From the NCBI RefSeq assembly GCF_021295335.1, contig NZ_JAIWOT010000001.1:2650501-2714500 (forward strand): a stretch of 64,000 nt of DNA, in the 5' to 3' direction. Made by a program: the position numbers and the translations under genes. The DNA is from Komagataeibacter sp. FNDCF1 (GTDB lineage: Bacteria > Pseudomonadota > Alphaproteobacteria > Acetobacterales > Acetobacteraceae). This document shows positions 1,346 to 52,858 of the stretch, one piece after another. Under the pieces are notes generated by a model, which was given only the letters and a program-made list of their open reading frames with translations, made no database searches and was not told the DNA's origin. Position 1 is the stretch's first letter. Each line of letters opens with the position of its first letter.

Positions 1346-1423
1346 GAAGTTTGTGGGTGCCGCCTTTTTTCAAAAGGCGGCGTTCCTTGAAGCTTTCTGG
1401 AAAAAAGCTTCACCAGAAACTTC
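1346..1423 (+). repeat. Intergenic three-arm repeat, copy A (forward)
   Basis: Copy of a 78-bp repeat found six times in this window. The ends GAAGTTTGTGGGT (1346-1358) and ACCAGAAACTTC (1412-1423) form an imperfect inverted repeat. Inside are arm 1, GCCGCC...GGCGGC (1359-1381), and arm 2, GAAGCTTT...AAAGCTTC (1389-1411). It lies 20 bases after the tldD stop and 9 bases from the pdxJ stop, at a convergent junction. The short A-rich flank on its left (CATAAAAAAT) recurs beside copy D. Confidence 0.85.
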
Positions 1424-1432
1424 TTATCTTTT

Positions 1433-2182
1433 TCAAGCACTTCGTGCCGCCGCCATTACCGCCTTCATGTGGCGGATCACGGCGGGCAACCCGTCAAAGA
1501 TGGCCTGACCGATCAGGAAATGCCCGATGTTCAGTTCCATCACCTGCGGCAGCGCCGCGATCGGGCTGACGTTCCCGTAGGTCAGGCCATGGCCCGCATG
1601 GACCTCCAGCCCACACCGCGCCGCGTGCTCCGCCCCGGTGGCCAGGCGGCCCAGTTCCACGGCGCGCGCGGTGTCATCCGCCGCATCGGCATAGGCGCCG
1701 GTATGCAGTTCCACCACGGCGGCCCCCAGTTGCGCTGCGGTTTCGATCTGCGCGGCATCGGGGTCGATGAACAGGGAGACCCGGATCCCCGCATCGCGCA
1801 TGCGGGCAATGCGTGGGGCAAGGCTGCCTGCCTGCCCGCGCACGTCCAGCCCCCCTTCGGTCGTGACTTCCTGCCGCCGCTCGGGCACCAGGCAGCAGGC
1901 ATGCGGGCGCAGGCGGGTGGCGATGGTGGTCATTTCCGCGGTGGCCGCCATTTCCATGTTCAGTGGAATGGAAAGTTCCGCGCGCAGGCGTTCAAGGTCC
2001 GCATCGCGGATATGGCGACGGTCCTCACGCAGATGGGCGGTAATGCCGTCCGCCCCGGATTGCTGGGCCAGCAGCGCCGCCAGCACCGGGTCCGGATGCG
2101 TGCCGCCACGCGCGTTGCGCACCGTGGCCACGTGGTCGATGTTCACGCCCAGCCGGATCGTGGCGCAAGGGAATGTGCTCAT
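1433..2182 (-). CDS. pdxJ: Pyridoxine 5'-phosphate synthase PdxJ
   Basis: Cytoplasmic TIM-barrel enzyme that condenses 3-amino-2-oxopropyl phosphate with 1-deoxyxylulose 5-phosphate to give pyridoxine 5'-phosphate, the last ring-forming step of DXP-dependent vitamin B6 synthesis. The 249-aa length is normal. The N-terminal family signature is clear ([16 protein letters not shown] near residue 13), as are [16 protein letters not shown] and the later [14 protein letters not shown] segment. Its ATG overlaps the pdxA stop by 4 bases, so the two are almost certainly translationally coupled, and PdxA supplies its substrate. This tight pdxA-pdxJ pairing supports both calls. Confidence 0.97.
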
Positions 2183-3168
2183 GTCGGGTTCCTGTGTTCG
2201 GCCATCCGGGCTGCCATGTGCAGGGCGGCGACAAGGCTGGCGGGATCGGCCACGCCGCGTCCGGCTATGTCAAAGGCGGTGCCGTGATCGGGCGATGTAC
2301 GGATGATCGGCAGCCCCAGCGTGGTGTTGACCCCCTGTGTCATGTCGATGGTCTTGAGCGGGATCAGCGCCTGGTCATGGTACATGCACATCGCCACGTC
2401 GTAGCGTGCCCGCGCGGGGGGCGTGAACATGGTGTCCGGCGGCCATGGGCCGGTAATGTCCATGCCCTCGGCACGCAGGGTTTCCATGGCGGGCATGATG
2501 ATGGTCTGTTCTTCCGTCCCCATGCTGCCGCTCTCGCCCGCATGCGGGTTCAGCCCGGCCATGGCGATGCGGGGGGCCGCAATGCCGAAATCGCGGACCA
2601 GCGCCGCATGGGTGGTGCGGGTGGCGGCAATGATGCCATCGGTGGTCAGTTCATCCAGCGCACGGCGCAGGCTGACATGGATGGTAACGGGCACCACGCG
2701 CAGTTCCGGGCAGGCCAGCATCATCACCTCGCGCCCCGGCACGTTGCACAATGCGGCAAGGTATTCGGTATGGCCGGGATAGGCGAAGCCCGCCTTCTTC
2801 AGCACGATCTTGCTGATCGGGTTGGTCACCACCGCGCCAGCCTGTCCGTTGCGGGCCAGTTCCACCGCGCGTGCGATGGATGTGGTGATGGCGTCCGCAT
2901 TGCGGCTGTCTGGCTGGCCAGGCAGCACGGTGGTGGCAAGGGCAACCGGCAGCACGGGCACCGCGTGGGCAAACACCTCCGGTGTCTCCCCGATGGTCCC
3001 GATCTCGCGCACCGGCACGCCGTGGCGGCCGATCAGGCCCGCGTCGCCAATCACGGCAAAGCGGGCCGGGCCCGTCCGCATGGCCTGCCACGCGCCTGCC
3101 GTGATTTCCGGCCCGATCCCCGCCGGGTCGCCCATGGTCAGGGCGAGGGGAGGGTGGACCTCAGCCAT
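2179..3168 (-). CDS. pdxA: 4-hydroxythreonine-4-phosphate dehydrogenase PdxA
   Basis: NAD-dependent oxidation and decarboxylation of 4-phosphohydroxy-L-threonine, giving the amine partner used by PdxJ. The family N-terminus [16 protein letters not shown] is present, together with the metal-binding histidine regions (GHTEYLA and the [12 protein letters not shown] segment). I chose the ATG at 3168, which gives 329 aa, the usual length. It lies inside the last codons of the upstream dipeptidase gene (8-base overlap) and suggests coupling. An in-frame ATG at 3186 would add six residues. The gene sits in a leftward dipeptidase-pdxA-pdxJ operon. Confidence 0.96.
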
Positions 3169-4567
3169 CGTGCCGCACCATGGCATGCAGGATACGGACC
3201 CACGAGCGCATGCCCTTGTGGAAGGAAGTCAGTTCATATTTTTCGTTAGGCGAATGGGCACGGTCATCATCCAGCGCAAAACCCACCAGCAGGGCGGGCA
3301 TGCCCAGTATGCGCTGCATGTCGCCCGCCACCGGGATCGAGCCGCCACAGCCAATGGTCACGGCAGGCGTGTTCCATTCATCCCCCAGTGCGCGCAGGGT
3401 CGGCTGCAGGCCGAACGCGTCATCGGGCAGCGCGCTGGCGGTCGACCCGCCACAGGGGGTGAAGGTCACCGTGCAGTCGGCGGGCAGCATGGCGCGGACA
3501 TGGGCACAGAAGGCCTGCCGGATATGGACGGGGTCCTGCCCCGCCACCAGCCGGAACGAGACCTTGGCCACCGCCTCGCCCGGCAGCACGGTCTTGAACC
3601 CTTCGCCGGTATAGCCGCTGGAAATGCCGTTGATCTCGAAGCTGGGGCGGCACCATGTCTGTTCGATGGCGGTATAACCCTTCTCACCCACCGGGACGGA
3701 CAGCCCGACCTCACCCAGGAAGGTCGCGTCATCGGGCGCGATCTCGCGCCAGCGCGCACGCAGCGCGGCCGGGGGCTCTTCCACGCCCGTATAGAATCCG
3801 GGCAGTACGACACGGCCGGTTTCCCCGTCACGGATGGAGGACAGGATGCCGCACAGCAGTTCCGCCGGGTTGCGCGCGGCATTGCCGTACACGCCGGAAT
3901 GCAGGTCACGGCTTGCGCAGCGCAGATGGATTTCCTCCCCCAGCATGCCGCGTAGCGTGGTGGTGACGGCAGGCACGCCGGGCAGCATGGCGGTATCGCA
4001 GATCAGCCCCACATCGGCGCGCAGTTCGTCACGATGGCTGTCCATGAAGGGAACCAGGCTGGGGCCGCCGCATTCCTCCTCCCCCTCGATCAGGAGCGAG
4101 ATGCGCACCGGCATGGTGCCCGTGGTGGCGCGGATGGCGCGGATGGCCTCGATGAAGGTCATCACCTGACCCTTGTCGTCCGATGCCCCGCGCGCGACGA
4201 TGCGTTTTGCGCCATTCGTGCCGGTCACCAGTTTCGGCTCGAACGGGCCGCTGTCCCACAGGTTCAGCGGGTCGACGGGCTGCACGTCGTAATGGCCATA
4301 GAACAGCACATGCGGGCCGGCAGGTGGCGTCCGGTCATGGGCGACCAGAATGGGGTGGCCGGGTGTCGCGTGCAGGGTCACGTCGAACCCGAGTTCGTCA
4401 AGCTGGTCACGCAGCCACGCCGCCGCCCGCCTGCAGTCATCCGCATGTTCGGGCTGGGTGGAAATGCTGGGAATGCGCAGGAAGGTGAACAGCCGCTCCA
4501 GCGCCGCATCAAGCGTGCGGTCCGCCTGTTCCAGAACGGGAGCAAGGGAAGGGGAGGAACTGGTCAT
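3161..4567 (-). CDS. M20 family metallopeptidase (dipeptidase)
   Basis: Zinc-dependent peptidase of the M20/M25/M40 family, of the carnosinase-like dipeptidase type. Visible motifs are [11 protein letters not shown] (first metal site), [10 protein letters not shown] (bridging Asp), and [10 protein letters not shown] (catalytic Glu pair), followed by a lid domain and a C-terminal metal His region with [10 protein letters not shown]. The start at 4567 is preceded by GGAGA at a good distance. An upstream in-frame ATG at 4651 would add 28 residues without family character. The protein is 468 aa. It is the first gene of the operon with pdxA and pdxJ. A physiological substrate cannot be read from sequence. 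Confidence 0.92.
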
Positions 4568-4888
4568 GCATTCTCCGTTATCTGGCAGGCATCGGATGGC
4601 CCGGACGGGCAGTATGCGATTTTGCCTGTTATGGGGGTAAAAGCAACTCACCCACAGGGGGTGGCAAGCATGCGCCGGCCCGGCCGTTGCCTGCCCGCCA
4701 TCACGCAGGGATAACGCAGGGGTGGCGGGCGCGCTTCATGTCCGTGCATGAGACCGGAGCGGCGTGCCCCTGCTTTTTGGCCGGCATTTTCAGACACCCT
4801 GAAGAAGAATCTGGAATTGAGGAATTGATGGCGGCAGGAAATCATTTATCATGGCGAGAATTAAAATAAGGTCTTGAAGTTATTCCAG
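4568..4888. other. Intergenic region, dipeptidase / membrane protein
   Basis: About 320 bases between divergent genes. The right half (from about 4790) is noticeably AT-richer than its surroundings and probably carries the promoter of the downstream membrane-protein gene. Short open frames here show no family character or convincing ribosome binding site. I see no repeat or terminator. Confidence 0.5.
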
Positions 4889-6439
4889 ATGACAGTTGGG
4901 AAAAACCTAGGATACCTGTTCCTGTCATTTGCCTTGACCGTTATTTCGTATTTTTTTTATACGAGAATATTTTTCAACGCGCCCGGCGCCATCGGGATAA
5001 TCATCAATTCGGACAGTCTCGTCCTTCCCCAGATGGGGTGGGAAATGTCGCATGTACCGGATGCCTGGCGGCATTTCCAATGGCCCCGTGTTCCAAGCCT
5101 GTTTCCGGACATGCTCTGGTTCTGGGGGGCTGAAGGGCTCGGGGTCGGCTGGCGTCCTGCCTGGAACGGTTTTTTCCTTTTTTCCCTGTCGCTGATGACC
5201 CTGTGCCTGGGGGCCGTCGTCTGGCGTATGGGAACGCTGTCTTTCAGCAGGGCGCTTTTCGTGTCTGCCCTGACCCTGGCGGCATATGTGGCGTTCGTGT
5301 CGTCCGGGGCCCATGTCAGTGCATTGAGCGATATATCGGGCCTGCTTGAAATATTCCTGCCCGCCTTCCATGGCAGTTCATTCATGCTGTCCCTGCTGGC
5401 CGCGACGACAGCGAACATGGCCTGTGACCGGGGCGACCGGATTGCGGATTTTGTTCCGACCGCCTGTCTGTGCGCTGTCGCGACCTTCAGCGACCCCATG
5501 TTCATCACGACGTTCGCCGTTCCCTTTTTCCTGTCGACCCGTATGTTCGCGGTGCGGCACAGGGGGGCGAATTCACTCACCAGGTCCATGTGCCAGGGGG
5601 TCGGGATCCCTTTGTTCCTGCTGTTCTCATGCCTTGTCGGGTTCGTGGGTCAGGAATTTCTGTACAAGCAAAGCCTGTCCGGCACGGTCAAGCATTTCCC
5701 GCTGGTTGCTTTTCCAGAAATCATATATTTTTCATTGTTCAGCGTCCGGGCATCCTTCTGTCTGGTATTTGCTCTGCTGTCGGTCATACCGTTCCTGAAA
5801 ATCCGGTCAGAAATATCCGCAAATAAAATCAGGCCACACAGGGAACGACTGTTCTACCATGGCTATGCGGCATCAATCATATCCCTGTTCATATTGTCGG
5901 TATCATATGTTGACCTGTCAATTTACAGATATGCATTGCCAGCGACATGGTGGTCGATAATCTTCATCATTTCAAATATTGATTCGGAATCTGTCAGGAA
6001 AATATCGAAGATTTTTCTGGTATCCCTGCCATTCATCATCCTGTTTTTCATATTCATGGGCTGGAAGGGCGACAGGAATGCACTGGATGGATGGCACGCC
6101 CCGCTGGAAACCTGCATCTCGCGCAATCATGACGGGCTGGGACTGCGGGACGGACTTGCCGGTTACTGGGTATCGCGGAAAATAGAAGCGTCATCGGACT
6201 GGAAACTGCAGGTCGAGCAGGTAACGGGCGGGAACCATATGTTCATATGGGGCAATAACCCGGACCTTTATACGCACGGCCTGCACCGTTTTGATAAACC
6301 CCCGTATTTCAATTACGTCATCGATGATGGAAAGGATGAGATGCAGGGATTGTACAGGGAGATCGGCCCGCCTTCCCATATCCTGCACTGCCCTGAAGCG
6401 GATGTGCTGATGTTCAGCCGGCAGATCAGGGTGGAATGA
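4889..6439 (+). CDS. Multi-pass membrane protein, possible GT-C-type glycosyltransferase
   Basis: About 516 aa with roughly ten hydrophobic segments spread through the first 400 residues, then a soluble C-terminal part of about 115 residues that is likely periplasmic. An acidic/aromatic loop follows the first membrane segment (NSDSLVLPQMGWEM), the arrangement seen in polytopic GT-C glycosyltransferases and related polymer proteins, but no diagnostic motif is certain. The ATG at 4889 has a weak GAAG upstream, and a TTG at 4874 is the alternative start. Codon use is unusual for the window (ATA, AGA, many T-ending codons), which suggests acquisition by transfer. It is flanked by unrelated genes. 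Function is not known. Confidence 0.75.
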   Translation: MTVGKNLGYLFLSFALTVISYFFYTRIFFNAPGAIGIIINSDSLVLPQMGWEMSHVPDAWRHFQWPRVPSLFPDMLWFWGAEGLGVGWRPAWNGFFLFSLSLMTLCLGAVVWRMGTLSFSRALFVSALTLAAYVAFVSSGAHVSALSDISGLLEIFLPAFHGSSFMLSLLAATTANMACDRGDRIADFVPTACLCAVATFSDPMFITTFAVPFFLSTRMFAVRHRGANSLTRSMCQGVGIPLFLLFSCLVGFVGQEFLYKQSLSGTVKHFPLVAFPEIIYFSLFSVRASFCLVFALLSVIPFLKIRSEISANKIRPHRERLFYHGYAASIISLFILSVSYVDLSIYRYALPATWWSIIFIISNIDSESVRKISKIFLVSLPFIILFFIFMGWKGDRNALDGWHAPLETCISRNHDGLGLRDGLAGYWVSRKIEASSDWKLQVEQVTGGNHMFIWGNNPDLYTHGLHRFDKPPYFNYVIDDGKDEMQGLYREIGPPSHILHCPEADVLMFSRQIRVE

Positions 6440-6485
6440 CGCAGCAGGCTTCACCGTGAGCGTTTCATTCCATCCATGCGGGCAC

Positions 6486-6770
6486 TCAGCATTGTCCGTG
6501 CAGGAACCCCAGCGCGGGCAGGGGGCGCCATGCGCGCGGCAGGTCCGCGCGGCGGTAGGGGCGGATGCTGTAATGTGGTATCGCGATTTCATTGCGTTCA
6601 AGGAAATTCCGGTAGGCTGCGACCTGCCGGGTGCGCCATTCACAATCCGCCTCGGCGGCGGCGCGGGTGGGGTAGATGCTGGCGATGCGCGTGCCGCGCC
6701 GGGTTGTGGCCACCACCGCCCAGGATTCATCACGTCGCGCCACGGTCCGGAATGCGACAACCTTGCCCAT
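6486..6770 (-). CDS. Hypothetical small protein, 94 aa
   Basis: A small soluble protein beginning MGKVVAFRTVARRDE, basic overall, with an internal Ala-rich helix (TRAAAEADCEWRTRQVAAYR) and an Arg/Pro-rich C-terminus. The start at 6770 is preceded by a GGGG-type ribosome binding site. The reading frame has normal high-GC codon use and the opposite frames look poorer, so I accept it as real. It is divergent from the LapA-domain gene. I recognise no domain and infer no function. Confidence 0.6.
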   Translation of the reverse strand: MGKVVAFRTVARRDESWAVVATTRRGTRIASIYPTRAAAEADCEWRTRQVAAYRNFLERNEIAIPHYSIRPYRRADLPRAWRPLPALGFLHGQC

Positions 6771-6914
6771 TGTTCTGCCCCTGTCCCGGTTGCAAGGGGG
6801 CCGGCAACGGCCCTGCCGTTCAGGCAAGCATGGCTGTGGCGTGCAATGCAAGCAGTGCGCGGCATGAATTGATTTTCTTGCAGGGGCCGGTTGTTGGGGG
6901 TAGGGAACAGGATC

Positions 6915-7337
6915 ATGATACGTCTTTTCATTACCCTGCCCGTCATCGTGGCACTGATCGTTTTCGCGGCCTGCAATCAGGCGCCGGTGGAACTGTCATG
7001 GCTGGAATGGAAATGGACGTCATCACCCGGCGTGCTGGCCCTGCTGGTGGCCGCCCTGTTCTATGCCACCGGGTCGGCCAGTGTCTGGATCGTGGTGCTG
7101 CGCCAGATGCGCCGCGCCCGCCGCGCCGAACAGGAACTGCGCACCCTGCGTGCTCGCCTGCCGGAAAATGACGTGACCACGCCCCGGACGCCGGGGCTGG
7201 CTTCGGCCCCGGCCAGTTCACCCATGGTGCAGGCCTATGCGGCGGGGCAGGCCACGCCAGCGCAACCGGCGCCAGTGGCCGAGGGCACTGCGGTAACGGA
7301 GTCCCCCGTCACGCCGGAACGTCCCCCGGCTTCCTGA
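6915..7337 (+). CDS. LapA-domain (DUF1049-like) inner-membrane protein
   Basis: A 140-aa protein with two N-terminal transmembrane segments (residues about 1-20 and 37-58), separated by a short loop containing PVELSWLEWKWTSSP. A charged Arg-rich coiled-coil-like stretch (RRARRAEQELRTLRARL) follows, then a Pro/Ala/Thr-rich tail. This matches small lipopolysaccharide-assembly LapA-domain proteins (two helices and a cytoplasmic coil), which in E. coli act with LapB on LpxC stability. The start at 6915 has AGGA close upstream. It lies 52 bases before pyrF and may share its transcript. The LapA-pyrF neighbourhood is common in alphaproteobacteria. Confidence 0.75.
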   Translation: MIRLFITLPVIVALIVFAACNQAPVELSWLEWKWTSSPGVLALLVAALFYATGSASVWIVVLRQMRRARRAEQELRTLRARLPENDVTTPRTPGLASAPASSPMVQAYAAGQATPAQPAPVAEGTAVTESPVTPERPPAS

Positions 7338-7389
7338 GCTTTTCAGCCTCTCCTGTCATAACCCGCTGCCTGTTTCTGGAGTGCCGCCA

Positions 7390-8097
7390 ATGCATGGACG
7401 GTCCACCCGCCTGATTATTGCCCTCGATACCAAGGATACGGCGCAGGCCACGCGCTGGCGGCAGGATACGGCCAGCCATGTGGGCGCGGTCAAGCTGGGG
7501 CTGGAGTTCACCTATGCCCGTGGATTGGAAGCCGTGCGCGCGGTCGCGGGTGACAGCCCGCTGTTCCTTGACCTGAAGCTGCACGATATTCCCAACACGG
7601 TTGCATCCGCCATTGGCAGCCTTGCCGCCGTGCGGCCTGCCATGCTGACCATCCATGCATCGGGGGGGCGGGCCATGATTGCGGCGGCCCGCGCCGCAGT
7701 GGATGCGACCTTTCCGGAAAATGCCCGTCCGCTGCTTCTGGCCGTGACCGTGCTGACCAGCATGGATGCGGCTGCCCTGCATGAAACCGGGGTCACGGGC
7801 AGCGTGGAGGCACAGGTGGTGCGCCTCGGGCGGCTGGCCATCGAATCGGGTGCGGATGGACTGGTCTGCTCCTCGCACGAGATCGCGCCATTGCGGCAGG
7901 CACTGGGTGACGGGCCTGTACTGGTAGTGCCGGGCATCCGTCCCGCCGGGAGCGCCGTGGGGGACCAGAAGCGTGTGATGACCCCGGCACAGGCCCGTGC
8001 GGCAGGGGCTGACTGGATCGTGGTGGGTCGTCCCATCACCCGTGCCACCGACCCGGCCGCTGCCGCTGCCGCCATCGCGCGCGAACTGTCGGCCTGA
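7390..8097 (+). CDS. pyrF: Orotidine 5'-phosphate decarboxylase PyrF
   Basis: Converts OMP to UMP, the last step of de novo pyrimidine synthesis; cytoplasmic TIM-barrel. Signatures are LIIALDTKD at the N-terminus, the catalytic FLDLKLHDIPNTV motif (Asp-Lys-Asp charge network), and the C-terminal phosphate-binding VVGRPITRA. Length 235 aa is normal. The ATG at 7390 is preceded by GGAG eight bases away, so the in-frame GTG at 7381 overlapping that site is unlikely. It is followed after 19 bases by trpF, so the two form a small nucleotide/tryptophan operon. Confidence 0.97.
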   Translation: MHGRSTRLIIALDTKDTAQATRWRQDTASHVGAVKLGLEFTYARGLEAVRAVAGDSPLFLDLKLHDIPNTVASAIGSLAAVRPAMLTIHASGGRAMIAAARAAVDATFPENARPLLLAVTVLTSMDAAALHETGVTGSVEAQVVRLGRLAIESGADGLVCSSHEIAPLRQALGDGPVLVVPGIRPAGSAVGDQKRVMTPAQARAAGADWIVVGRPITRATDPAAAAAAIARELSA

Positions 8098-8116
8098 ACC
8101 GTACGGAGGGGACATC

Positions 8117-21083: not shown

Positions 21084-21456
21084 GCCCGGGCGGGCGGGGC
21101 GGACGTGTCATGCCGTCATCGGCCTGCCGTAACAAAGCCGGCAGGCTTATCTGCTGGATGGCGGGTCTTTTTGATGACGGGAATGCTGGCAGGGCCGTGC
21201 CCGGCGGACTTTTTCTGTCCTGTGCCGTGCCTGCAGACTGGCTATCCCGCGCCGGAACAGGCAGGCAGGGCTGACGCATGGGTGTTGATCCGGAGGGAAT
21301 GGTCATGATCCACGGCATTCGCCGGGGCCAGCGACTGCATTGCCATGATGGATGCCGAGATGGACCAGATATGGCGCACCATAACGGATGGCACGGTGAT
21401 CATCATCAAGCCGTGACAGGTGTGCATCCCCGTTGGGGGAGGAAACTTAAAAAAAG
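21084..21456. other. Intergenic region without recognisable gene
   Basis: About 370 bases between the end of the FUSC gene and the terminator shared with accC. Short open frames on both strands have no protein character or ribosome binding sites. No repeat or RNA gene is evident. Confidence 0.5.
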
Positions 21457-21485
21457 GGCGGCACCGGAATGGTGCCGCCTTTTTT
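21457..21485. terminator. Bidirectional intrinsic terminator (FUSC gene / accC)
   Basis: Perfect 9-bp stem GGCGGCACC / GGTGCCGCC around the loop GGAAT. It has TTTTTT on the plus side and an A-run (about 21449-21455) that supplies U's on the minus strand. It lies 31 bases beyond the accC stop, so it most clearly serves aroQ-accB-accC. Confidence 0.9.
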
Positions 21486-21515
21486 CATGGTTCCTGTTTT
21501 CAGGTGTGGCCGGGT

Positions 21516-25832: not shown

Positions 25833-26963
25833 ATGACTCCCAAAATCGCTCGTTATCTGGCTGAGCAGTCCCCTGCAACGCCTTGCCTTGTCGTTGACGT
25901 TGACCGGGTGGAGGAACGCTATCGCGCCCTGCGTGAAGCGCTGCCGCTGGCCCGGATATATTATGCGGTCAAGGCAAATCCCGCCAATCCGATTCTCAGC
26001 CGTCTCGTCAGCCTTGGCTCGGCATTCGATGCCGCGTCGTGGGAAGAGATTTCCATGTGCCTCGAAGCGGGGGCCCGCCCGGCGGACATCTCGTTCGGCA
26101 ACACGGTAAAGAAGGCGTCCAACATCGCCCGCGCCCACAAGGCGGGCGTGGACATGTTTGCCTTCGACTGCGCCGAGGAACTGGACAAGCTGGCCCGCCA
26201 CGCGCCGGGATCGCGCGTCTACTGCCGCCTGATCGTGGAAAACGAAGGGGCGGACTGGCCGCTGTCACGCAAGTTTGGCACCACGCTGGACAATGCGCGT
26301 GATCTCATGCTGCGCGCCCGTGACCTGGGGCTGGACCCGTATGGCCTGTCCTTCCACGTTGGCAGCCAGCAGACGGAAACCGGGGCGTATGAAGCCGCGA
26401 TCTCGCGTGTCGGCATGCTGTTCACCGACCTTAAGGCGGCGGGGCTTGACCTGCGCATGGTCAATCTGGGTGGCGGATTCCCCATCCGCTACCGTGATGA
26501 CGTACCGGGCATCGACCGCTTCGCGGTGGCGATCAGCCACGCCATGACCGAGCATTTCGGCAATGACCTGCCGGAAATGATCATCGAGCCGGGCCGCTTC
26601 ATGGTGGGGGACGCGGGTGTGGTCTCGTCGGAAGTGGTGCTGGTCAGCCGTCGTGGCATGGAAGATGGCGTGCGTTGGGTCTATCTCGACATCGGGCGTT
26701 TCGGTGGCCTGGCCGAGACCGAGGGCGAGGCCATCCGCTACGGCATCCGCACCCCGCATGATGGCATGGCAACCGGCCCGGTCGCCATTGCCGGCCCCAC
26801 CTGCGATGGCGCGGACATCATGTATGAAAAAACCCCTTATGCCCTGCCGCTGGGGCTGGAGTCGGGGGACCGGATCGAACTGCTGTCCACCGGTGCGTAT
26901 GTCTCGACCTACTGCTCCACCGGGTTCAATGGGCTCAAGCCGATCATGGAACACTATATCTGA
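25833..26963 (+). CDS. Type III PLP-dependent ornithine (or lysine) decarboxylase
   Basis: A 376-aa alanine-racemase-fold decarboxylase that would make putrescine from ornithine (or cadaverine from lysine). Visible: YYAVKANP with the PLP Schiff-base lysine (about residue 51), the HVGSQ motif, VNLGGGFP phosphate-binding loop, EPGRFMVGDAG, and the dimer-interface active-site GPTCDGADIM with the catalytic Cys. This matches eukaryotic-type ornithine decarboxylases common in alphaproteobacteria. The short length argues against arginine decarboxylase or LysA. GAAGGG lies upstream of ATG 25833. The long leader suggests polyamine-responsive control. Confidence 0.9.
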   Translation: MTPKIARYLAEQSPATPCLVVDVDRVEERYRALREALPLARIYYAVKANPANPILSRLVSLGSAFDAASWEEISMCLEAGARPADISFGNTVKKASNIARAHKAGVDMFAFDCAEELDKLARHAPGSRVYCRLIVENEGADWPLSRKFGTTLDNARDLMLRARDLGLDPYGLSFHVGSQQTETGAYEAAISRVGMLFTDLKAAGLDLRMVNLGGGFPIRYRDDVPGIDRFAVAISHAMTEHFGNDLPEMIIEPGRFMVGDAGVVSSEVVLVSRRGMEDGVRWVYLDIGRFGGLAETEGEAIRYGIRTPHDGMATGPVAIAGPTCDGADIMYEKTPYALPLGLESGDRIELLSTGAYVSTYCSTGFNGLKPIMEHYI

Positions 26964-26997
26964 ACCCTGTTCCCGAAATGCCCTGCTGAAATGTAGG

Positions 26998-27075
26998 GAT
27001 GTTTCTGGTGAAGCTTTTTTCAGAAAGCTTCACGGAACGCCGCCTTTTTTCAAAAAGGCGGCGTCCAAGAACTTG
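26998..27075 (-). repeat. Intergenic three-arm repeat, copy B (reverse)
   Basis: 78-bp copy in the opposite orientation to copy A. It runs GATGTTTCTGGT, then arm GAAGCTTT...AAAGCTTC, a spacer, arm GCCGCC...GGCGGC, and ends TCCAAGAACTTG. The A/T-rich flank on its right, read on the minus strand, is TTGATAAAAATTAC, like the left flank of copy E. It starts 35 bases after the decarboxylase stop. Confidence 0.85.
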
Positions 27076-27216
27076 TAATTTTTATCAATGAGTTATTTCA
27101 AAACACGCTTTCAGGAAGAATGCGATTTCAGGGCGGTGGGACGAAAGTCTTGCCGCCCTGCGTCCATCAGGGGGATACAGGCGGCAGTCCAGTCCAATAC
27201 CGGAGGTATCCCGCCC

Positions 27217-33084: not shown

Positions 33085-33132
33085 CAGAATCGATAAAAAC
33101 CATTTTGAGACAGGAAACTGGCGGGAAAACAA

Positions 33133-33215
33133 GAATTTCCAAAAGTCGCCTTTTTTCAAAAAGGCAATGTTTCCTGAATCTTTTTGAAAAAAGCTTTACC
33201 GCAAACGACGTCTTC
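33133..33215 (+). repeat. Intergenic three-arm repeat, copy C (degenerate)
   Basis: The most diverged copy. Arm 1 (GCCTTTTTTCAAAAAGGC) is intact as a hairpin, arm 2 (GAATCTTTTTG...AAAAAGCTTT) is decayed, and only parts of the outer stem remain. It sits at the convergent junction of the LysR gene and the 313-aa protein gene. Confidence 0.7.
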
Positions 33216-42423: not shown

Positions 42424-42460
42424 AGCGCGTTCGCAGGTCATCCTGTCATAAAAAATGATA

Positions 42461-42540
42461 AAAGTTTTCAGGGGTCACCTTTTTTCAGGAAGATGACGTT
42501 CTTCTGAAGCTCTCCAAAAAAGCTTCACCAAGAACCCCTT
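42461..42540 (+). repeat. Intergenic three-arm repeat, copy D (forward)
   Basis: Diverged copy. Arm 1 is GTCACCTT...AAGATGAC, where both sides have changed from GCCGCC/GGCGGC yet still pair. Arm 2 is GAAGCT...AGCTTC. The outer stem is partly kept. The left flank CATAAAAAATGAT matches that of copy A. Convergent junction of rbfA and the MCE gene. Confidence 0.8.
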
Positions 42541-42555
42541 TGTCACTTGCTAATA

Positions 42556-45356: not shown

Positions 45357-47495
45357 ATGTTTAATTATTTTCGCAAGGAAATCGAATGGGGCGGCCGCCC
45401 GCTGGTGCTGGAAACGGGCAAGATCGCCCGCCAGGCCGACGGTGCAGTTGTCGTGACCTATGGCGATACGGTGGTGCTGTGCACGGCCGTTGGCGCCAAG
45501 AGCGTCAAGCCGGGGCAGGACTTCTTCCCGCTGACGGTCAACTATCAGGAAAAGGCCTATGCCGCGGGCAAGATCCCCGGTGGCTTCTTCAAGCGTGAAG
45601 GCCGCCCGAGCGAGGCCGAGGTCCTGAACTCGCGCCTGATCGACCGCCCGCTGCGCCCGCTGTTTCCCGAGAACTTCCGCAACGAAGTGCAGGTCATCGC
45701 CACCGTGCTCAGCCACGATATGGAGAACGACCCCGCCGTTGTGGCGCTGATCGGCTGTTCGGCCGCGCTGACGCTGTCGGGCATTCCGTTCTTCGGCCCC
45801 GTGGGTGCGGCCCGCGTGGGTTACAGCAACGGCAAATACGTACTGAACCCGACCATTTCCCAGCTCAAGGAAAGCGAACTGGACCTGGTCGTGGCCGGTA
45901 CGTCCGAAGGCGTGCTGATGGTCGAGTCCGAGGCGGTGGAACTGTCCGAGGACGTGATGCTGGGCGCCGTGACCTTCGGCCACGAAGCCTTCCAGCCGGT
46001 GATCGACCTGATCATCGACCTGGCCGAAAGTGCGGCAAAGGCCCCGTGGGACCTGGCCGAGCCGACGGCTGAGGAAGTCAAGCTGCGCAAGAAGGTGGAC
46101 AAGGCCGGTCGCGCCCTGATCGCCGATGCCTACAAGGAACGCGCCAAGCAGGTGCGTTACAAGAAGGTTGCCGCGGCGCGTGAAGCCATCCTGGCGAAGA
46201 TTGGCGAAGATGATGCCGCTGCCGCCAAGCCCATGATCAAGGATCTGGAAGCCGATGTGGTCCGCACCGAAGTGCTCGACACCGGTTTCCGCATCGATGG
46301 CCGTGATCTGGAAACGATCCGCCCGATCGTGTCCGAAGTCGGCATCCTGCCGCGTGCCCATGGCTCCGCCCTGTTTACCCGTGGGGAGACGCAGGCCCTT
46401 GTGGTCGCGACCCTTGGCACCGGGCAGGACGAGCAGATCGTGGATGCGCTGGAAGGCGAATACCGCAACAACTTCATGCTGCACTACAACTTCCCGCCCT
46501 TCTCGGTGGGTGAGTGCGGGCGCATGGGTTCTCCCGGTCGCCGTGAAATCGGCCATGGCAAGCTGGCATGGCGTGCGATCCACCCGCTGCTGCCGGGCAA
46601 GGACACCTTCCCGTACACCATGCGCGTGGTGTCCGAGATCACGGAAAGCAACGGCTCGTCCTCCATGGCGACCGTATGCGGCACGTCGCTGGCGCTGATG
46701 GATGCGGGTGTGCCGCTCAAGCGCCCGGTGGCGGGTATCGCCATGGGCCTGATCAAGGAAGACGAGGATTTCGCCGTCCTGTCCGACATCCTGGGTGATG
46801 AAGACCATCTGGGTGACATGGACTTCAAGGTGGCCGGCACCGAGCAGGGTGTCACCGCGCTGCAGATGGACATCAAGATCACGTCGATCACGCCGGAAAT
46901 CATGAAGATCGCGCTGGGGCAGGCCCGTCAGGGTCGCCTGCACATTCTGGGTGAGATGGCCAAGGCGCTGACCGAAGGCCGCACGGATGTCTCCTCCTCC
47001 GCCCCGAAGATCACCACGATCTCGGTTCCGAAGGAAAAGATCCGTGATGTGATCGGTCAGGGCGGTAAAGTTATCCGTGAGATCGTTGAATATTCGGGTG
47101 CCAAGATCGACATCAACGATGATGGCACGATCATGATCGCCGCATCCTCCGACGATCAGGCCGAAAAGGCCATCGAGCGGATCCGTGGCATCACGGCCGA
47201 ACCCGAAGTGGGCCACATCTATAACGGCAAGGTGGTCAAGACCGCCGATTTCGGGGCGTTCGTGAACTTCCTTGGCCCCCGTGACGGGCTGGTTCACATC
47301 TCCGAACTGGCGGAAGGGCGCGTTTCCAAGACGACCGACGTCGTCAAGCAGGGAGACGAGGTGAAGGTGAAGGTGCTGGGCTTTGACGATCGCGGCAAGG
47401 TCAAGCTGTCCATGCGCGTGGTTGACCAGAAGACCGGTGCCGACATTACCGACACCGTGGGCGCCAGGCCCGGCCGTGCCCCCGGCGCGCGGTAA
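45357..47495 (+). CDS. pnp: Polynucleotide phosphorylase PNPase
   Basis: Phosphorolytic 3'-5' exoribonuclease of RNA decay. 712 aa: two RNase PH domains (residues about 10-145 and 310-450, the second with [14 protein letters not shown]), an all-helical linker, KH domain ([20 protein letters not shown]) and S1 domain ([21 protein letters not shown]). The start [11 protein letters not shown] at 45357 matches the family; the frame is open upstream through the leader without homology. Follows rpsO in the same direction. Confidence 0.98.
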
Positions 47496-47579
47496 GACGC
47501 GGGCCCCGGCCTACTTAACCCGGCGGGATGGGGGTAGCACAGGCCGCACCCTGCCGCCGGGCAGATACATGACGATGGA

Positions 47580-49004
47580 ATGGTGATGAAGCCGATCAAT
47601 GCGATCCGCATGGGCGGAACGGATATTCTGCCCCTGGTAGAAGGGGGGAAGGGCGTCTCGATTTCGACCGGTGTGTCCGCCGGGCACTGGGCGGCGGCGG
47701 GCGGTGCCGGCACGATCTCGATCGTGAATGCCGATTCCTATGACGAGAACGGCAACATCGTTCCCCAGACCTATCACGGCAGGACCCGGCGTGAACGGCA
47801 TGAGGAACTGGTCGATTACGCCATTCGTGGCGGCATTGACCAGGCCCGCATCGCGCATGAACTTGCCGGCGGCAGGGGGCGGATACACGCCAACATCCTG
47901 TGGGAAATGGGTGGGGCCGAACGGGTCATTACCGGTGTGCTGGAAGGGGCTCCGGGCCTGATCCAGGGGCTGACCTGTGGCGCGGGCATGCCGTACCGCC
48001 TGTCGGAAATCGCGGCGCGCTTCGGCATCCATTACTATCCCATCGTATCTTCCGCCCGCGCGTTCAACGCCCTGTGGCGCCGTTCATACAACAAGACGGC
48101 GGAACTGCTGGGCGGCGTGGTGTACGAGGACCCGTGGCGCGCTGGCGGCCATAATGGCCTGTCCAACACCGAAAACCCGCTGGCGCCGGAAGACCCGTTC
48201 CCCCGCGTGCTGGCGCTGCGCAAGCAGATGCGTGCCTTTGGCCTGGATGACACCCCCATCATCATGGCCGGTGGCGTATGGTGGCTGGAGGAATGGCAGG
48301 ACTGGATCGACAGTCCCGAACTGGGGCCGATCGTCTTCCAGTTCGGTACCCGCCCGCTGCTGACGCGTGAAAGCCCGATTCCCGATGCATGGAAGCGCCG
48401 CCTGCTGACGCTGAAGAAGGGGGATGTGTTCCTCAACCGCTTCTCGCCTACGGGTTTCTATTCCTCTGCCGTGAACAACACCTTCCTGCGCGAACTGCGC
48501 GGGCGGTCGGAGCGGCAGGTACCGTTCTCGCCCGAGGCCGTGGGCGAGCATACCGCAGCCCTGGCCATTGGCGCGCGCGGGCGGCAGGTCTTTGTCACTC
48601 CCGCCGACCGTCAGCACGCACAGTTGTGGATGGAAGAAGGCCATACCGAGGCCATGCGCACGCCAGACAACACGCTGGTGTTCGTAAGCCCCGAAAAGGC
48701 GCGTGAGATCCTGGCTGATCAGGGGGCCTGCATGGGCTGCCTGTCCGAATGCCGCTTCTCCAACTGGTCGCAGCGCCCGCCCGCCTATTCCAACGGGCAC
48801 AAGGCGGACCCGCGTTCCTACTGCATCCAGAAAACCCTGCAGGCGGCAGCCCACGCCCATGGGCCGGATCAGGATGCGGTGATTGACAACAACCTCATGT
48901 TTGGCGGCACCAATGCGTGGCGGTTCGCGACCGATCCGTTCTATGCCAATGGCTTCGTGCCCACCGTGGCGCAGCTGCTGGAACAGATCATGACCGGTCG
49001 CTAA
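47580..49004 (+). CDS. NMO-family flavin oxidoreductase with C-terminal Cys cluster
   Basis: 474 aa, FMN-dependent TIM-barrel of the nitronate monooxygenase / FabK-like family. Visible are GTDILPLVEGGKGVSIS at the N-terminus, LIQGLTCGAGMPYRLSEIA, PIIMAGGVWW and the GPIVFQFGTRPL phosphate-binding end. The length exceeds the 320-350 aa of ordinary nitronate monooxygenases. The extra C-terminal part has four cysteines in C-X2-C-X3-C-X23-C order (residues 384, 387, 391, 415), which could bind an iron-sulfur cluster or zinc. The true substrate is unknown. Starts at 47583 and 47586 are also possible. Confidence 0.85.
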   Translation: MVMKPINAIRMGGTDILPLVEGGKGVSISTGVSAGHWAAAGGAGTISIVNADSYDENGNIVPQTYHGRTRRERHEELVDYAIRGGIDQARIAHELAGGRGRIHANILWEMGGAERVITGVLEGAPGLIQGLTCGAGMPYRLSEIAARFGIHYYPIVSSARAFNALWRRSYNKTAELLGGVVYEDPWRAGGHNGLSNTENPLAPEDPFPRVLALRKQMRAFGLDDTPIIMAGGVWWLEEWQDWIDSPELGPIVFQFGTRPLLTRESPIPDAWKRRLLTLKKGDVFLNRFSPTGFYSSAVNNTFLRELRGRSERQVPFSPEAVGEHTAALAIGARGRQVFVTPADRQHAQLWMEEGHTEAMRTPDNTLVFVSPEKAREILADQGACMGCLSECRFSNWSQRPPAYSNGHKADPRSYCIQKTLQAAAHAHGPDQDAVIDNNLMFGGTNAWRFATDPFYANGFVPTVAQLLEQIMTGR

Positions 49005-49028
49005 GCACCATTATTGATAAAAAAGAAT

Positions 49029-49106
49029 GAAAGTTTTTGGGTGCCGCCTTTTTTCAGAAAGGCGGCATTCCCTGAAGCCTTTTTCAAAAGGCTTCACCAA
49101 AGCTTC
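49029..49106 (+). repeat. Intergenic three-arm repeat, copy E (forward)
   Basis: Well-kept 78-bp copy. Outer ends are GAAAGTTTTTGGGT and ACCAAAGCTTC, arm 1 is GCCGCC...GGCGGC, and arm 2 is GAAGCC...GGCTTC. The C-G pair in arm 2 replaces the T-A pair of the other copies, a compensatory change. Left flank TTGATAAAAAAG. Convergent junction of the flavin oxidoreductase gene and rdgB. Confidence 0.88.
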
Positions 49107-49117
49107 TTTCTGCTTTG

Positions 49118-49147
49118 AAGGCCGGCCTCATGAGGCCGGCCTTTTTT
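49118..49147. terminator. Palindromic terminator (rdgB side / plus strand)
   Basis: Perfect inverted repeat AAGGCCGGCCTCA / TGAGGCCGGCCTT (49118-49143), followed by T's on the plus strand. Lies 17 bases beyond the rdgB stop and 12 bases after repeat copy E. It could end transcripts from both sides. Confidence 0.85.
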
Positions 49148-49164
49148 ATGCTGGATGCGGCAGG

Positions 49165-49785
49165 CTATGCCGCGTCCTTTGGCAGGCAGGCATTGCGGAA
49201 CAGGGCGAAGGCCAGCCCGCGATGGCTGATGGCGTTCTTTTCCCCGTCCGTCATGTCGGCAAAGGTGCGGGTGCCCGTGCCGGGGGCAAAAAGCGGGTCA
49301 TAGCCATGGCCATTCGTGCCATGGGGCGGCCAGACGACATGGCCGTCAATCCGGCCCTCGAATGTTTCGGTATGTCCGTCAGGCCATGCCAGGCACAGCA
49401 CGGAAATGAACCATGCCCCCCGGTCGGGGTTATCGCCAATCCGGTCATGGATACGGCGCATCGCATCGGGGTAGTCCTTGCCCGGCCCGGCCCAGCGGGC
49501 GGAGAAAATTCCCGGCGCGCCGCCAAGTGCTGAAACACAGAAGCCGGAATCATCGGCCAGTGCGGGCAGGTTCGCGGCTTTTGCTGCGGCCACGGCCTTG
49601 ATCGCGGCGTTACCCGCAAAGTTGTCGGCCGTCTCCTCCGGTTCCGGCAGCGAAAGATCCCCCGCGGACCGGACATGGATGCCGTAGCCGCCAAGGAGCG
49701 CCGCGAATTCCGCAATCTTGCCCCGGTTATGGGTAGCCAGCACCAGTGTATCGCCCCGGTTCAGGCGGCTGGAATGTCGTGTCAT
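49165..49785 (-). CDS. rdgB: XTP/dITP pyrophosphatase RdgB (Ham1 family)
   Basis: Removes non-canonical purine nucleotides (dITP, XTP) from the pool. 206 aa with [14 protein letters not shown] (triphosphate-binding), [26 protein letters not shown] (catalytic Asp), GYDPLFAPG and the [11 protein letters not shown] ending. Its start overlaps the rph stop by 4 bases (ATGA); the rph-rdgB pair is widely conserved and supports both calls. Confidence 0.97.
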
Positions 49786-50510
49786 GCCTTGAGCGCCTCT
49801 TCCACCGTGGCGGTCTGGATGCGGAACAGTTCCGCGGTTCCGGTGCGGGCAAGCCGCATGAGGGTATTGAACTCGGCCTCGGTAAAGGGGTCCTGTTCGG
49901 CGGTGCCCTGTATTTCCACAATACCGCCATCGGCGGTCAGGACAAAATTGGAATCGGCGCGCGCGTTGCTGTCTTCCCTGTAATCCAGGTCAAGCACCGC
50001 GCCATCTTCCGTCAGCCCGCATGATACGGCGGCGACCTGCCCCCTGAGCGGCACGGTATCCAGCGTGCCCGCGCGCACAAGCGTTTCCAGCGCAAGGCGC
50101 AGCGCCACCCATGCCCCGGTAATGGCGGCGCAGCGCGTGCCGCCATCGGCATTCAGCACGTCGCAATCCACCGTGATCGAGATTTCCCCCAATGCCTTCA
50201 GGTCGGTCACGGCACGCAGCGAGCGGGCAATCAGGCGCTGGATTTCCTGGGTGCGGCCGCTCTGCCTGCCCTTTGCGGCTTCACGCGGGCCACGGCTGTG
50301 GGTGGCGCGCGGCAGCATGCCATATTCCGCCGTGACCCAGCCCTGTCCCCTGCCGCGCAGGAAGGACGGGACACGCATCTCCACGCTGGCGGCGCACAGG
50401 ACTTCGGTCCCGCCCATGCGGATCAGGGCGGAACCTTCCGCGTGGCGGGCAAAGCCGGTCTGGATGAAGACGGGACGCAGGGCGTCAATGGCACGGCCGG
50501 ATGGGCGCAT
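49782..50510 (-). CDS. rph: Ribonuclease PH
   Basis: Phosphorolytic trimming of tRNA 3' ends. 242 aa, normal length. [14 protein letters not shown] start, [29 protein letters not shown], the phosphate-binding [18 protein letters not shown] stretch and [18 protein letters not shown] are all family motifs. Start at 50510 (MRPSGR) fits homologs; an upstream extension to 50588 does not. Operon with rdgB; divergent from hrcA across about 150 bases. Confidence 0.98.
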
Positions 50511-50661
50511 GGGGGTAACTCCGCAAGGTGATGGGGCGGCATAGCGTGCAATCCCCCTGCATTGCCAGTCCCGCGTGGGCAGGGGCATGGATCATCTGTT
50601 ATACTGGTGGGCATGCGAATGGTCGCATGGCGGATGAATGCGCAAAACAGGAGGCATGGCG

Positions 50662-51735
50662 ATGGAAACCCGACCACCGGTATCGCAGCCGGCCCTGCTC
50701 TCCGGGCTTGACCCGCGATCTGCCGCGATCCTGCGTGAGATCGTGGAGCAGTATGTCGAAACGGGTGAGCCGATGGGCTCGCGCACGCTTTCGCAGCGCC
50801 TGCCGCTTTCGCTCTCGCCGGCCACGATTCGCAATGTCATGGCCGACCTGACCGATGCGGGGCTGCTGTTTTCCCCCCACACCTCGGCGGGGCGCCTGCC
50901 GACGGAGAAGGGCGTGCGGCTGTTTGTCGATGGCCTGCTGCAGTTTGGCAGCCTGAGCGAGGACGAGCGCGAGAGCATCGCGGGCATGCTGGACGTAAAG
51001 GGCCGCTCGCTGGAGGATACGCTGGCGCAGGCGTCCTCCATGCTGTCGGGCCTGTCCTCGGCGGCGGGGGTGGTCATGGCGCCCAAGAGCGATGGCGCCA
51101 CCATCAAGCATATCGAATTCGTGGCGCTTGGTCCGGGGCGGGCACTGGTCATCCTGGTCAGTGCCGACGGGCAGGTGGAAAACCGCGTGATCGAGATTCC
51201 GCCCGGCCTGCCGCCTTCCGCACTGGTGGAGGCGGGGAACTACCTCAACGCCCACCTGTCCGGCCAGACGCTGGACCGCCTGCGCGAGACGGTCAGCACC
51301 GCCATGACGGCCAACCGCAACGAACTGGACCACCTGACGGCGGAAGTCGTGTCCAGTGGCCTCGCCACATGGAGTGACGCGGACGAGCGCGGGGGCACCC
51401 TGTTCATACGCGGGCAGGGGCGCCTGCTGGCCGATGTGACCGAGATCGAGCGCCTGACCACCATCCAGATGCTGTTCGAACGGCTGGAGACGCAGGAGAC
51501 CATGCTCCGCCTGCTCGACCTTGCGCGCGAATCCGAAGGGGTGCGGATCTTCATCGGGGCGGAAAGCGGGCTGTTCGGCATGGCGGGCATGTCGGTGGTG
51601 GTGGCGCCCGCACGCACCGACAGCAACCGCATCGTTGGCGCGATCGGGGTGATCGGACCCACGCGCATCAATTATGCCCGCATCATTCCCGTGGTGGACT
51701 ATACCGCCCGCGTGATCGGCCGCATGCTGGGCTGA
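50662..51735 (+). CDS. hrcA: Heat-inducible transcription repressor HrcA
   Basis: 357 aa. N-terminal winged helix (about residues 18-85; SAAILREIVEQYVETGEPMGS, LSPATIRNVMADLTDAGLL, HTSAGRLPTEKGVRLFVD), followed by the GAF-like/inserted-dimerisation domains. HrcA represses groE and dnaK operons through CIRCE operators and needs GroEL for activity. GGAGG lies seven bases before ATG 50662. The grpE-dnaK genes that often follow are absent; an aldo/keto reductase gene follows instead. I saw no CIRCE inverted repeat in the upstream region. Confidence 0.95.
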   Translation: METRPPVSQPALLSGLDPRSAAILREIVEQYVETGEPMGSRTLSQRLPLSLSPATIRNVMADLTDAGLLFSPHTSAGRLPTEKGVRLFVDGLLQFGSLSEDERESIAGMLDVKGRSLEDTLAQASSMLSGLSSAAGVVMAPKSDGATIKHIEFVALGPGRALVILVSADGQVENRVIEIPPGLPPSALVEAGNYLNAHLSGQTLDRLRETVSTAMTANRNELDHLTAEVVSSGLATWSDADERGGTLFIRGQGRLLADVTEIERLTTIQMLFERLETQETMLRLLDLARESEGVRIFIGAESGLFGMAGMSVVVAPARTDSNRIVGAIGVIGPTRINYARIIPVVDYTARVIGRMLG

Positions 51736-51855
51736 GGCGACGGGATTGCAATGCAACCCGCGCGGCTGGCGGTCCTTAATGGAAGGGCACAGACCAGCCA
51801 CACGCGCCCTGCGCTCGCGCGGGTGCGCGATGGCCCAACGCGCAAGGAGAATGGC

Positions 51856-52743
51856 ATGTTCACGCCCGATGCACGGCAGTCCGGATCGTTCATGATTGGT
51901 GGTGACCTGGAGGTCACACGGCTTGGTTTTGGCGCCATGCGCATCACCGGCCCCGGCATATGGGGTGAACCGGCCGACCGGAACGCGGCCCTCGCCACCC
52001 TGCGCCGCCTGCCTGAACTGGGCATCAACTTCGTTGATACGGCAGATGCTTATGGCCCGTTTGTCAGCGAGGACCTGATCCGTGAGGCGCTGCATCCCTA
52101 TACAAACACCATCATCGCCACCAAGGGCGGCCATACCCGCCACGGCCCGAACATATGGAAGCCGGTGGGCAACCCGGACTACCTGCGCCAGTGCGTGCTG
52201 ATGAGCATGCGCAGGCTGGGGGTGGAGCGCATCGACCTGTGGCAGCTGCACCGCGTGGGGGCCGACTGCACGCCCGAACAGCAGTTCGAGGCCATTGCCG
52301 CCATGCGCGCGCAGGGGCTGATCCGTCATGTCGGCCTGTCCGAAGTGACGGTGGAGATGATCGAGCGTGCGCGGCTGTATTTTCCCGTTGCGACCGTCCA
52401 GAACCGCTTCAACCTCGTCAACCGGTATTCCGAGGACGTGCTGGATTACTGCACGGAGGAGAATATCGGCTTCATCCCATGGGCGCCGCTGGCGGCGGGC
52501 AGCCTGACGAAGGGCGATACCCTGCTGACCCGCCTGGCCAGTGAGAAAGGTGTCCAGCCCGGCCAGATCGCGCTCGCATGGCTGCTGCGGCGCGCGCCGG
52601 TCATGCTGCCCATTCCCGGCACCGGCAGCCCCGACCACCTGGCCGATAACGCGGCGGCCGCCGCCATTGAACTGAGTGACGAGGAATTCCGCCAGCTTGA
52701 TAACGATGGCCGGGCCGAATGGGCCAGCCGGAACGATGCCTGA
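51856..52743 (+). CDS. Aldo/keto reductase
   Basis: 295-aa NADPH-dependent reductase with a TIM-barrel. Catalytic tetrad residues are visible: Asp/Tyr in [14 protein letters not shown], Lys in IIATKGG, and His in LWQLHRVG. The C-terminal cofactor-binding part is [30 protein letters not shown] lies six bases before ATG 51856. The substrate is not predictable. Downstream is repeat copy F. It may be read with hrcA (120-base gap). Confidence 0.93.
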
Positions 52744-52780
52744 CAGAAAGGCCATATTTGAAAATCCGTTAAAACATAAA

Positions 52781-52858
52781 GAAGTTTTTGGTGAAGCTTT
52801 TTTCGAAAAGCTTCAGGAAACGCCGCCTTTTTGAAAAAAGGCGGCACCCGAAAACTTT
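52781..52858 (-). repeat. Intergenic three-arm repeat, copy F (reverse)
   Basis: 78-bp copy in reverse orientation: GAAGTTTTTGGT, arm GAAGCTTTT...AAAAGCTTC, spacer AGGAAAC, arm GCCGCC...GGCGGC, ending ACCCGAAAACTTT. Starts 37 bases after the aldo/keto reductase stop, before mrcA. Confidence 0.88.

Follow-up and report, generated by a model that had tools for sequence, protein, structure and literature searches.

The window analysed here, a stretch of 64,000 nucleotides from Komagataeibacter sp. FNDCF1, contains six copies (A to F) of a short intergenic repeat, which is the element under study (Table 1). Written in one orientation, the six copies have their outer segments (the feet), their two hairpin arms and the order of these arms in common. 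An nhmmer profile of 33 copies, the six window copies among them, gave exactly six matches in the window, at the places and in the orientations (four forward, two reverse) described in the initial annotation, and none in a single random (Markov-1) sequence matching the 464 kb own-genome stretch in length. Gene calls from our own hexamer model, which are not curated, agree with that annotation: convergent genes flank copies A, C, D and E, and copies B and F follow a gene end.

The window element is best read, from its sequence, as two units set head to head, with the feet on the outside and pairing with each other so that a three-way junction is formed. This reading is adopted because single units as well as inward and outward pairs are seen in other genera. 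The consensus of the 33 copies is AATAAAAGTTTTTGGGTGCCGCCTTTTTTCAAAAAGGCGGCGTTC-n-CTGAAGCTTTTTGAAAAAAGCTTCACCAAAAACTTCTTT. A half unit consists of a foot, AAAAGTTTTTTG, and one hairpin, and occurs elsewhere alone or in outward pairs; the foot, or tag, of the unit is AAAAGTTTTT(T)G. The closing stem (P1) has 12 pairs, with 83% of cells paired across the 33 copies, and terminal inverted repeats are thus present. The A-rich left flank noticed earlier is indeed shared, yet it forms the outer portion of this terminal inverted repeat, mirrored by T-rich sequence on the right. The arm stems are of ~11 bp with an A/T core, and a CCA follows the second arm but belongs to the closing stem. In the consensus the arms are followed by GTTC and ACCAAAAAC, with a U-rich stretch only beyond the A+T-rich closing stem; a U-rich stretch behind the folded domain ends the element on both strands. 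The three-way junction proposed in the initial annotation is recovered as the minimum-energy fold of copies A, E and F. Copy B is instead predicted to form two hairpins with the closing stem absent, and the decayed copies C and D do not form the junction (z of -1.2 and -1.9, compared with -5.1 to -6.8 in A, B, E and F).

The arrangement of units outside the window was examined with a pattern scan that gave at least 120 stretches, 80 of them named. Many of the stretches among those listed are single units, with a foot and one hairpin and the second arm absent. Pair spacing was taken from 66 loci grouped by hand from the 120 stretches. The gaps of inward pairs are between -3 and 10 nt in 13 of 14 cases, the remaining one being 107 nt (in Clostridia). 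Of the 16 outward pairs from Acetobacteraceae and Rhodospirillales records, 11 are spaced by 44-49 nt (range 37-71 nt), and the four from Clostridia by 51-52 nt. The Komagataeibacter stretches include only one solitary unit. On three contigs of clostridial metagenome-assembled genomes (L226, L265 and L270), several lone units and outward pairs with gaps of 51-52 nt are followed by more hairpins.

The same plan is found in other genera with different stems (GTTC/GAAC, CTCCC/GGGAG, GCTTC/GAAGC and GTGGCCCC/GGGGCCAC; 24 loci were compared, four of them cut by contig ends and without usable output). For 25 elements from eight genera, with the structure drawn by hand on the alignment, 95.5% of the cells pair. 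Changes on both sides affect 11 pairs and 63 cells, compared with 5.7 and 21.4 in 500 shuffles, none of which reaches either value; a control in which the partners were slid gives at most 34 doubly changed cells. One of five covariation measures, the count of further pair types, is not outstanding (47 of the 500 shuffles are as high), and covariation inside the genus is weaker (21 cells versus 12.4 in shuffles). The importance of the pairing, as judged from these alignments, rests on the cross-genus covariation and not on the six window copies. Among 72 orthologous pairs, differences occur at 12.7% of stem sites and 19.3% of unpaired columns; there are 86 double changes, compared with 38 predicted under independence, and the pair is kept in 45 of them. 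Self-templated repair of the hairpins or conversion between copies could yield part of this stem signal between orthologues.

Table 1. Copies of the element in the window, their neighbouring genes and associated hairpins (positions are those of the window).
Feature	Position	Strand	Evidence and remarks
Copy A	1346..1423	+	nhmmer 1338-1427, 87 bits; three-way-junction fold, z -5.1
Genes flanking copy A, convergent	51-1325 and 1433-2146	+ and -	own gene calls
Copy B	26998..27075	-	nhmmer 26993-27082, 83 bits; two-hairpin fold, z -6.8; behind gene ending at 26963
Copy C, degenerate	33133..33215	+	nhmmer 33125-33212, 60 bits; structure lost, z -1.2
Genes flanking copy C, convergent	ends 33084 and 33252	+ and -	
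Copy D, degenerate	42461..42540	+	nhmmer 42453-42543, 61 bits; z -1.9
Genes flanking copy D, convergent	ends 42423 and 42618	+ and -	
Copy E	49029..49106	+	nhmmer 49021-49109, 85 bits; three-way-junction fold, z -5.2
Genes flanking copy E, convergent	ends 49004 and 49165	+ and -	
Copy E, first arm, GCCGCC...GGCGGC hairpin	49043..49066	+	sequence reading and fold
Copy E, second arm, GAAGCC...GGCTTC hairpin	49074..49095	+	sequence reading and fold
G+C-rich hairpin with A/T tracts, intrinsic-terminator-like, adjoining copy E	49118..49147		sequence reading
Copy F	52781..52858	-	nhmmer 52774-52866, 98 bits; three-way-junction fold, z -5.1
Genes flanking copy F, co-directional	52743 and 53100 (given as ends)	+ and +	

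The window also holds, at 21450-21490, a bidirectional terminator-like hairpin (AAAAAAGGGCGGCACC...GGTGCCGCCTTTTTTCA) that has 17 letters in common with the first arm of the element.

The position of the element relative to genes was assessed in 1.85 Mb from four genomes, comprising 388-400 kb of each of three relatives and 600 kb of the own genome (664 kb with the window). The 214 copies found there are distributed as 128 between convergent genes, 81 between co-directional genes, four between divergent genes and one inside a gene, so that 213 of 214 lie outside called genes, in line with the intergenic enrichment that had been named as a test of the initial annotation. Among gaps of at least 60 bp, the three relatives pooled have a copy in 98 of 125 convergent, 63 of 376 co-directional and four of 154 divergent gaps; the P values from these genomes are overstated because most sites are common to all three. 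The own stretch with the window has a copy in 18 of 39 convergent, 15 of 139 co-directional and 0 of 56 divergent gaps, and the second own stretch in 0 of 12, one of 51 and 0 of 22, respectively. Co-directional copies show no preferred orientation with respect to the upstream gene (34 with and 32 against in the three relatives and the window, from an earlier run). Several convergent gaps of 79-120 bp contain hardly anything besides the element. The 3' ends of 189 genes fall between -40 and 120 bp of the G of the foot, 142 of them at most 30 bp and 40 at most 10 bp away from it; these 40 use TAA (28), TGA (9) or TAG (3) as the stop codon, in some cases the TAA or TGA contained in AATAAAAG or TGATAAAAG of the foot, respectively.

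A covariance-model search of the own genome, as suggested in the initial annotation, gave 132 matches at at least 105 non-overlapping places (model R1; 150 of 1271 candidates scored), and blastn with copy E gave at least 40 places and four palindromic echoes (40 of 92 candidates scored). The density of copies is uneven, with 34 places in 2.5-3.0 Mb and two in the first 0.5 Mb. A gradient from the replication origin was considered for this and rejected, as dnaA lies at C1:73 whereas the copy peak is at 2.5-3.0 Mb. All 19 of 19 genomes of the genus carry copies. The counts are minima, with 27 (R1, family), 16 (R2, family) and 10 (R2, class) candidates scored per genome. At an E value of 0.001, R1 matches 24 of 150 genomes of the family, some of them weakly, and the broader model R2 at 1e-6 matches at least 37 of 249 Acetobacteraceae genomes, in 17 of 102 genera. 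In the class, R2 matches one of 385 genomes, namely the own one, which is a weak test of absence with 10 candidates scored per genome. Among the matches listed, the pattern scan includes Acetobacter, Asaia, Acidiphilium, Acidocella, Roseomonas, Rhodovastum and Nguyenibacter, and also, unexpectedly, records assigned to Clostridia, Aminicenantes, Cloacimonadota and Acidobacteria; most of the latter are metagenome bins and may be wrongly assigned. The foot and loop are present in the Clostridia by construction, because the pattern demands both; the stem pairing and the pair spacing are independent of it. Plasmid matches were obtained in four records of Komagataeibacter and one of Novacetimonas, and phage records gave no match to the element. 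On three annotated plasmids the match starts 31 bp (convergent), ~320 bp (co-directional) and ~390 bp (convergent) past the nearest gene end listed in an incomplete gene table.

Comparison of the window sites between genomes gives an indication of their history. Site F is filled in the own genome (G000) and in two others (G158 and G153), is filled in the opposite orientation in G060 and is empty in 15 of 19 genomes. At site E (18 genomes) the terminator-like hairpin was found by eye in the gap of every genome; the copy lies to its left in G000, G158 and G153 and to its right in 12 genomes, and three are empty. The copies of G158 and G153 are reversed, with a left flank resembling that of G000. 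Site A (15 genomes) has eight forward copies, one of them internally deleted, one forward remnant, three reverse copies in a different flank and three empty cases. Site D (19 genomes) has a match in 15, several of them weak or partial and in both orientations, and none in four. Because occupancy and orientation at sites A, D, E and F differ between genomes, the same junctions appear to have been filled repeatedly, or filled and then rearranged, with copies also lost through internal deletion, and it is from this differing occupancy that we infer mobility. Internally deleted copies at site E (L067, L077 and L079) and site A (L365) partly join the T/A tracts of both arms, as if recombined. In the 292 directed comparisons that find a copy at the orthologous site among three species of ~95% identity, the orientation by best strand is the same in 247 and opposite in 45. 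When the 77 pairs with a copy that is not full length are left out, 64 of the full-length pairs agree and six of 70, at four sites, are opposite. The flanks of the opposite pairs are less similar than at most other sites, with one flank unmatched, and either separate insertion or a flip in place may account for them.

From these sequence comparisons we conclude, with a probability of roughly 0.58, that the element is a non-autonomous tagged repeat resembling the REPINs (doublets of repetitive extragenic palindromic sequences, REPs, that form hairpins), dispersed by some enzyme, retained at gene 3' ends and perhaps serving as a two-way transcript end. The unit would be made up of a conserved foot, AAAAGTTTTT(T)G, and a hairpin behind it with a stem that varies between genera and a constant centre of a T tract and an A tract. 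Two such units facing one another, with outside feet that pair, would close the three-way junction, as the sequence and the covariation indicate. The element would probably have dispersed across the genome in a single-stranded DNA form with this fold, by means of an enzyme that recognizes the foot and the hairpin. Its copies would then persist nearly only behind gene ends, as the placement shows, where the foot can provide a stop codon. There, with its hairpins and a U-rich tail on either strand, the element may give folded 3' ends to both converging transcripts and so limit read-through or exonucleases; U-rich ends on both strands would suit a two-way transcript end or an exonuclease block.

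Several results weigh against this interpretation. With regard to the enzyme, no Y1_Tnp match was obtained in any of the 19 genomes of the genus (control genomes were positive), in agreement with the earlier report that no transposase is seen. Across the family, 26 of 249 Acetobacteraceae genomes have a Y1_Tnp match, and such matches are more common among genomes bearing the element (nine of 37 versus 17 of 212, P 0.006, uncorrected for kinship and assuming that both scans drew the same 249 genomes). At 18 Y1 loci of other genera, no convincing unit lies within 500 bp of the gene, with four of the loci ending less than 500 bp from it; the nearest units are at ~0.9 kb (G096) and ~1.2 kb (G110), and one chance-like foot lies within a 1285-aa open reading frame (ORF) of G605. 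Four of the 18 matches are within ORFs of 406-1285 aa, which are hardly small transposases. A REP-associated tyrosine transposase (RAYT) as mobilizer of the element is not supported by these scans but would still be conceivable. The mobilizer of the CGTC REPs is likewise described as not known in the available part of PMC3733652. Small Y1 matches with weak Pfam scores, in ORFs of 177-220 aa and without the element alongside, are possibly RAYT-like; they occur in G019, G033, G076, G096, G143, G546, G561, G563, G575 and G588 (loci L384, L387-L389 and L392-L398).

Movement and pairing meet with similar difficulties. In the three species of ~95% identity, 292 of 358 directed comparisons find the copy at the orthologous site, 33 find it absent and 33 cannot be judged; with most sites common to close species, there appears to have been little recent movement. 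None of the 33 absences is a clean empty site: the intergenic DNA has diverged, several hold remnants and exact junctions were not found. No target-site duplication was found for 42 copies, for which the longest direct repeat averages 4.50 nt versus 4.43 nt in shuffled pairs; old insertions could hide a duplication. Positions C1:200001-400000 of the own genome (L174-L183) contain one copy and 0 of 12 filled convergent gaps in a genome that is otherwise rich in copies. Furthermore, single changes that break or restore a pair account for 261 of 513 changed stem cells between orthologues.

The role in transcript ends is contested in the same way. In favour of this role, another terminator-like hairpin is less frequent in those convergent gaps of the three relatives that have the element (31 of 98) than in those without it (15 of 27; P 0.03, the genomes not being independent). 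No such difference is seen in the own genome (five of 18 versus nine of 33) or between co-directional genes of the relatives (13 of 63 versus 66 of 313), and the terminator detector is also positive for 34 of 150 copy-free divergent gaps. These two null results and the detector background make the contrast weak evidence. Most genomes also have an ordinary terminator next to the element at sites D and E. In the consensus, a G+C-rich hairpin followed directly by a U tract, as in an intrinsic terminator, is not found, and an A+T-rich closing stem next to the U-rich tail would be weak for one.

Three other explanations were weighed against the REPIN-like one. The element could be a purely selfish REP-like parasite, with the bias to 3' ends reflecting mere tolerance by selection. 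This shares the mode of dispersal with the preferred interpretation, so that the odds of the two are not exclusive, and we regard it as possible rather than probable. Decaying and internally deleted copies would be expected of such a parasite, as would the filling of sites D and E that already have terminators, and a location behind gene ends is given as a general REP property in the available text of PMC3733652. The excess of filled convergent over co-directional gaps in the relatives goes beyond what tolerance alone suggests, however, and the slower change of the stems, together with the surplus of double changes and the pairs kept among them, also speaks against it, although repair templated by the hairpin or conversion between copies could likewise produce this stem pattern.

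The other two explanations do not involve a REP. A classical miniature inverted-repeat transposable element (MITE), that is, a deletion derivative of an insertion sequence with terminal inverted repeats GAATAAAAGTTTTTGG that is moved in trans by a DDE transposase, would account for the terminal inverted repeats, the small size, the high copy number and the plasmid copies in Komagataeibacter and Novacetimonas; it is made unlikely by the 42 copies without a target-site duplication and by the single half units and outward pairs of other genera, which are not expected from a MITE. It is very improbable that the element is a variant of the ordinary bidirectional intrinsic terminator, formed on the spot many times over and not dispersed. 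The window hairpin at 21450-21490 does have GGTGCCGCCTTTTTTCA in common with arm 1, and at a few sites arm 1 became, or was replaced by, a terminator-like hairpin. Against this, two distinct arms in a fixed order with pairing feet are found at ~100 places in the own genome, and a T tract lies directly behind neither arm of the consensus.

Among described repeats, the closest counterparts are of the REP kind. The GTAG REPs and REPINs are tagged short extragenic hairpins found as singles and inverted pairs (Bertels and Rainey, 2011; Di Nocera et al., 2013; available parts of PMC3733652 and PMC3116915), and the same placement at 3' ends and stop codons supplied by the tag are described for them in PMC3733652. 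Like these, the element is a short extragenic palindromic hairpin that bears a conserved terminal tag and has a high copy number (at least 105 places); its units form singles and inverted pairs, the window element being a head-to-head pair; and it lies at gene 3' ends in convergent and co-directional gaps, where the tag may give the stop codon. It differs in its tag, AAAAGTTTTT(T)G, with GTAG or CTAC anywhere in only three of 33 copies, in that the paired tags are complementary and close a three-way junction, and in that no repeat-flanked RAYT (Y1) transposase was found (Y1_Tnp matches in 0 of 19 genomes of the genus). The CGTC REPs (Di Nocera et al., 2013) are also alphaproteobacterial, mostly in head-to-head pairs and without a known dedicated transposase, and have a CGTC (or TGTC, CCTC) tag, stems of 8-9 bp, loops of 4-5 nt and a CCA tail; the arms seen here are of ~11 bp with an A/T core, and the CCA behind the second arm is part of the closing stem. 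They are reported as missing in Acetobacteraceae in the part of the survey available (PMC3733652). CGTC is found between the arms in 0 of 33 genus copies and in three of 25 of the multi-genus set, all from the genus labelled g68 (three of five there, after arm 1), so that a remote tie of the element to the CGTC REPs is conceivable.

The initial annotation compared the element with REP elements, or the mosaic elements (BIMEs) built from them, and with MITEs. The likeness to REPs is borne out by the tagged hairpin units, the singles and inverted pairs and the gene 3' ends; that to MITEs is weaker. MITEs in general have terminal inverted repeats and are small, non-coding and present in many copies, but no target-site duplication was found for the element and its half units exist alone. 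In plastid genomes, small hairpin-loop inversions leave the stretch between inverted repeats in either orientation at the same site. The element is unlike these in that only six of 70 full-length orthologous pairs, at four sites, are opposite and separate insertion would also explain them. That no published name is known for the element agrees with our searches, in which no described element was matched in Rfam or in open-licence literature: the window gave no match to the Rfam covariance models, 12 loci gave 15 matches at E up to 1, all far below the gathering score, and no description was found in the literature consulted, including the available parts of PMC12306157 and PMC4686929. Because the tests for tag and transposase failed, the element was not filed as a GTAG or CGTC REP, and because no target-site duplication was found it was not filed as a MITE; a further kind of REP is the best reading of its sequence.

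A wider proposal, which we consider doubtful, is that the element belongs to a third super-family of tagged REPs with a self-pairing foot AAAAGTTTTT(T)G, a T6-C-A6 hairpin centre and free stems. This super-family would occur in Acetobacteraceae and also, in the form of lone units and outward pairs, in Clostridia and further phyla. It would be moved by a non-Y1 enzyme and would be the regular means by which both transcripts of convergent gene pairs end in some acetic-acid bacteria.

If the REPIN-like interpretation is true, the REP concept would be widened past the GTAG and CGTC tags by a repeat that is absent from the catalogues examined; the main REP survey, in the part available, lists Acetobacteraceae among the families without CGTC REPs (PMC3733652). 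It would offer a system in which the stems are altered between genera while the foot and the loop stay constant, and it would sharpen the question, already posed by the CGTC REPs, of which enzyme spreads REPs that have no tied RAYT. Acetic-acid bacteria, cellulose producers included, would then carry a repeat that fills most convergent junctions of the examined stretches in one clade.

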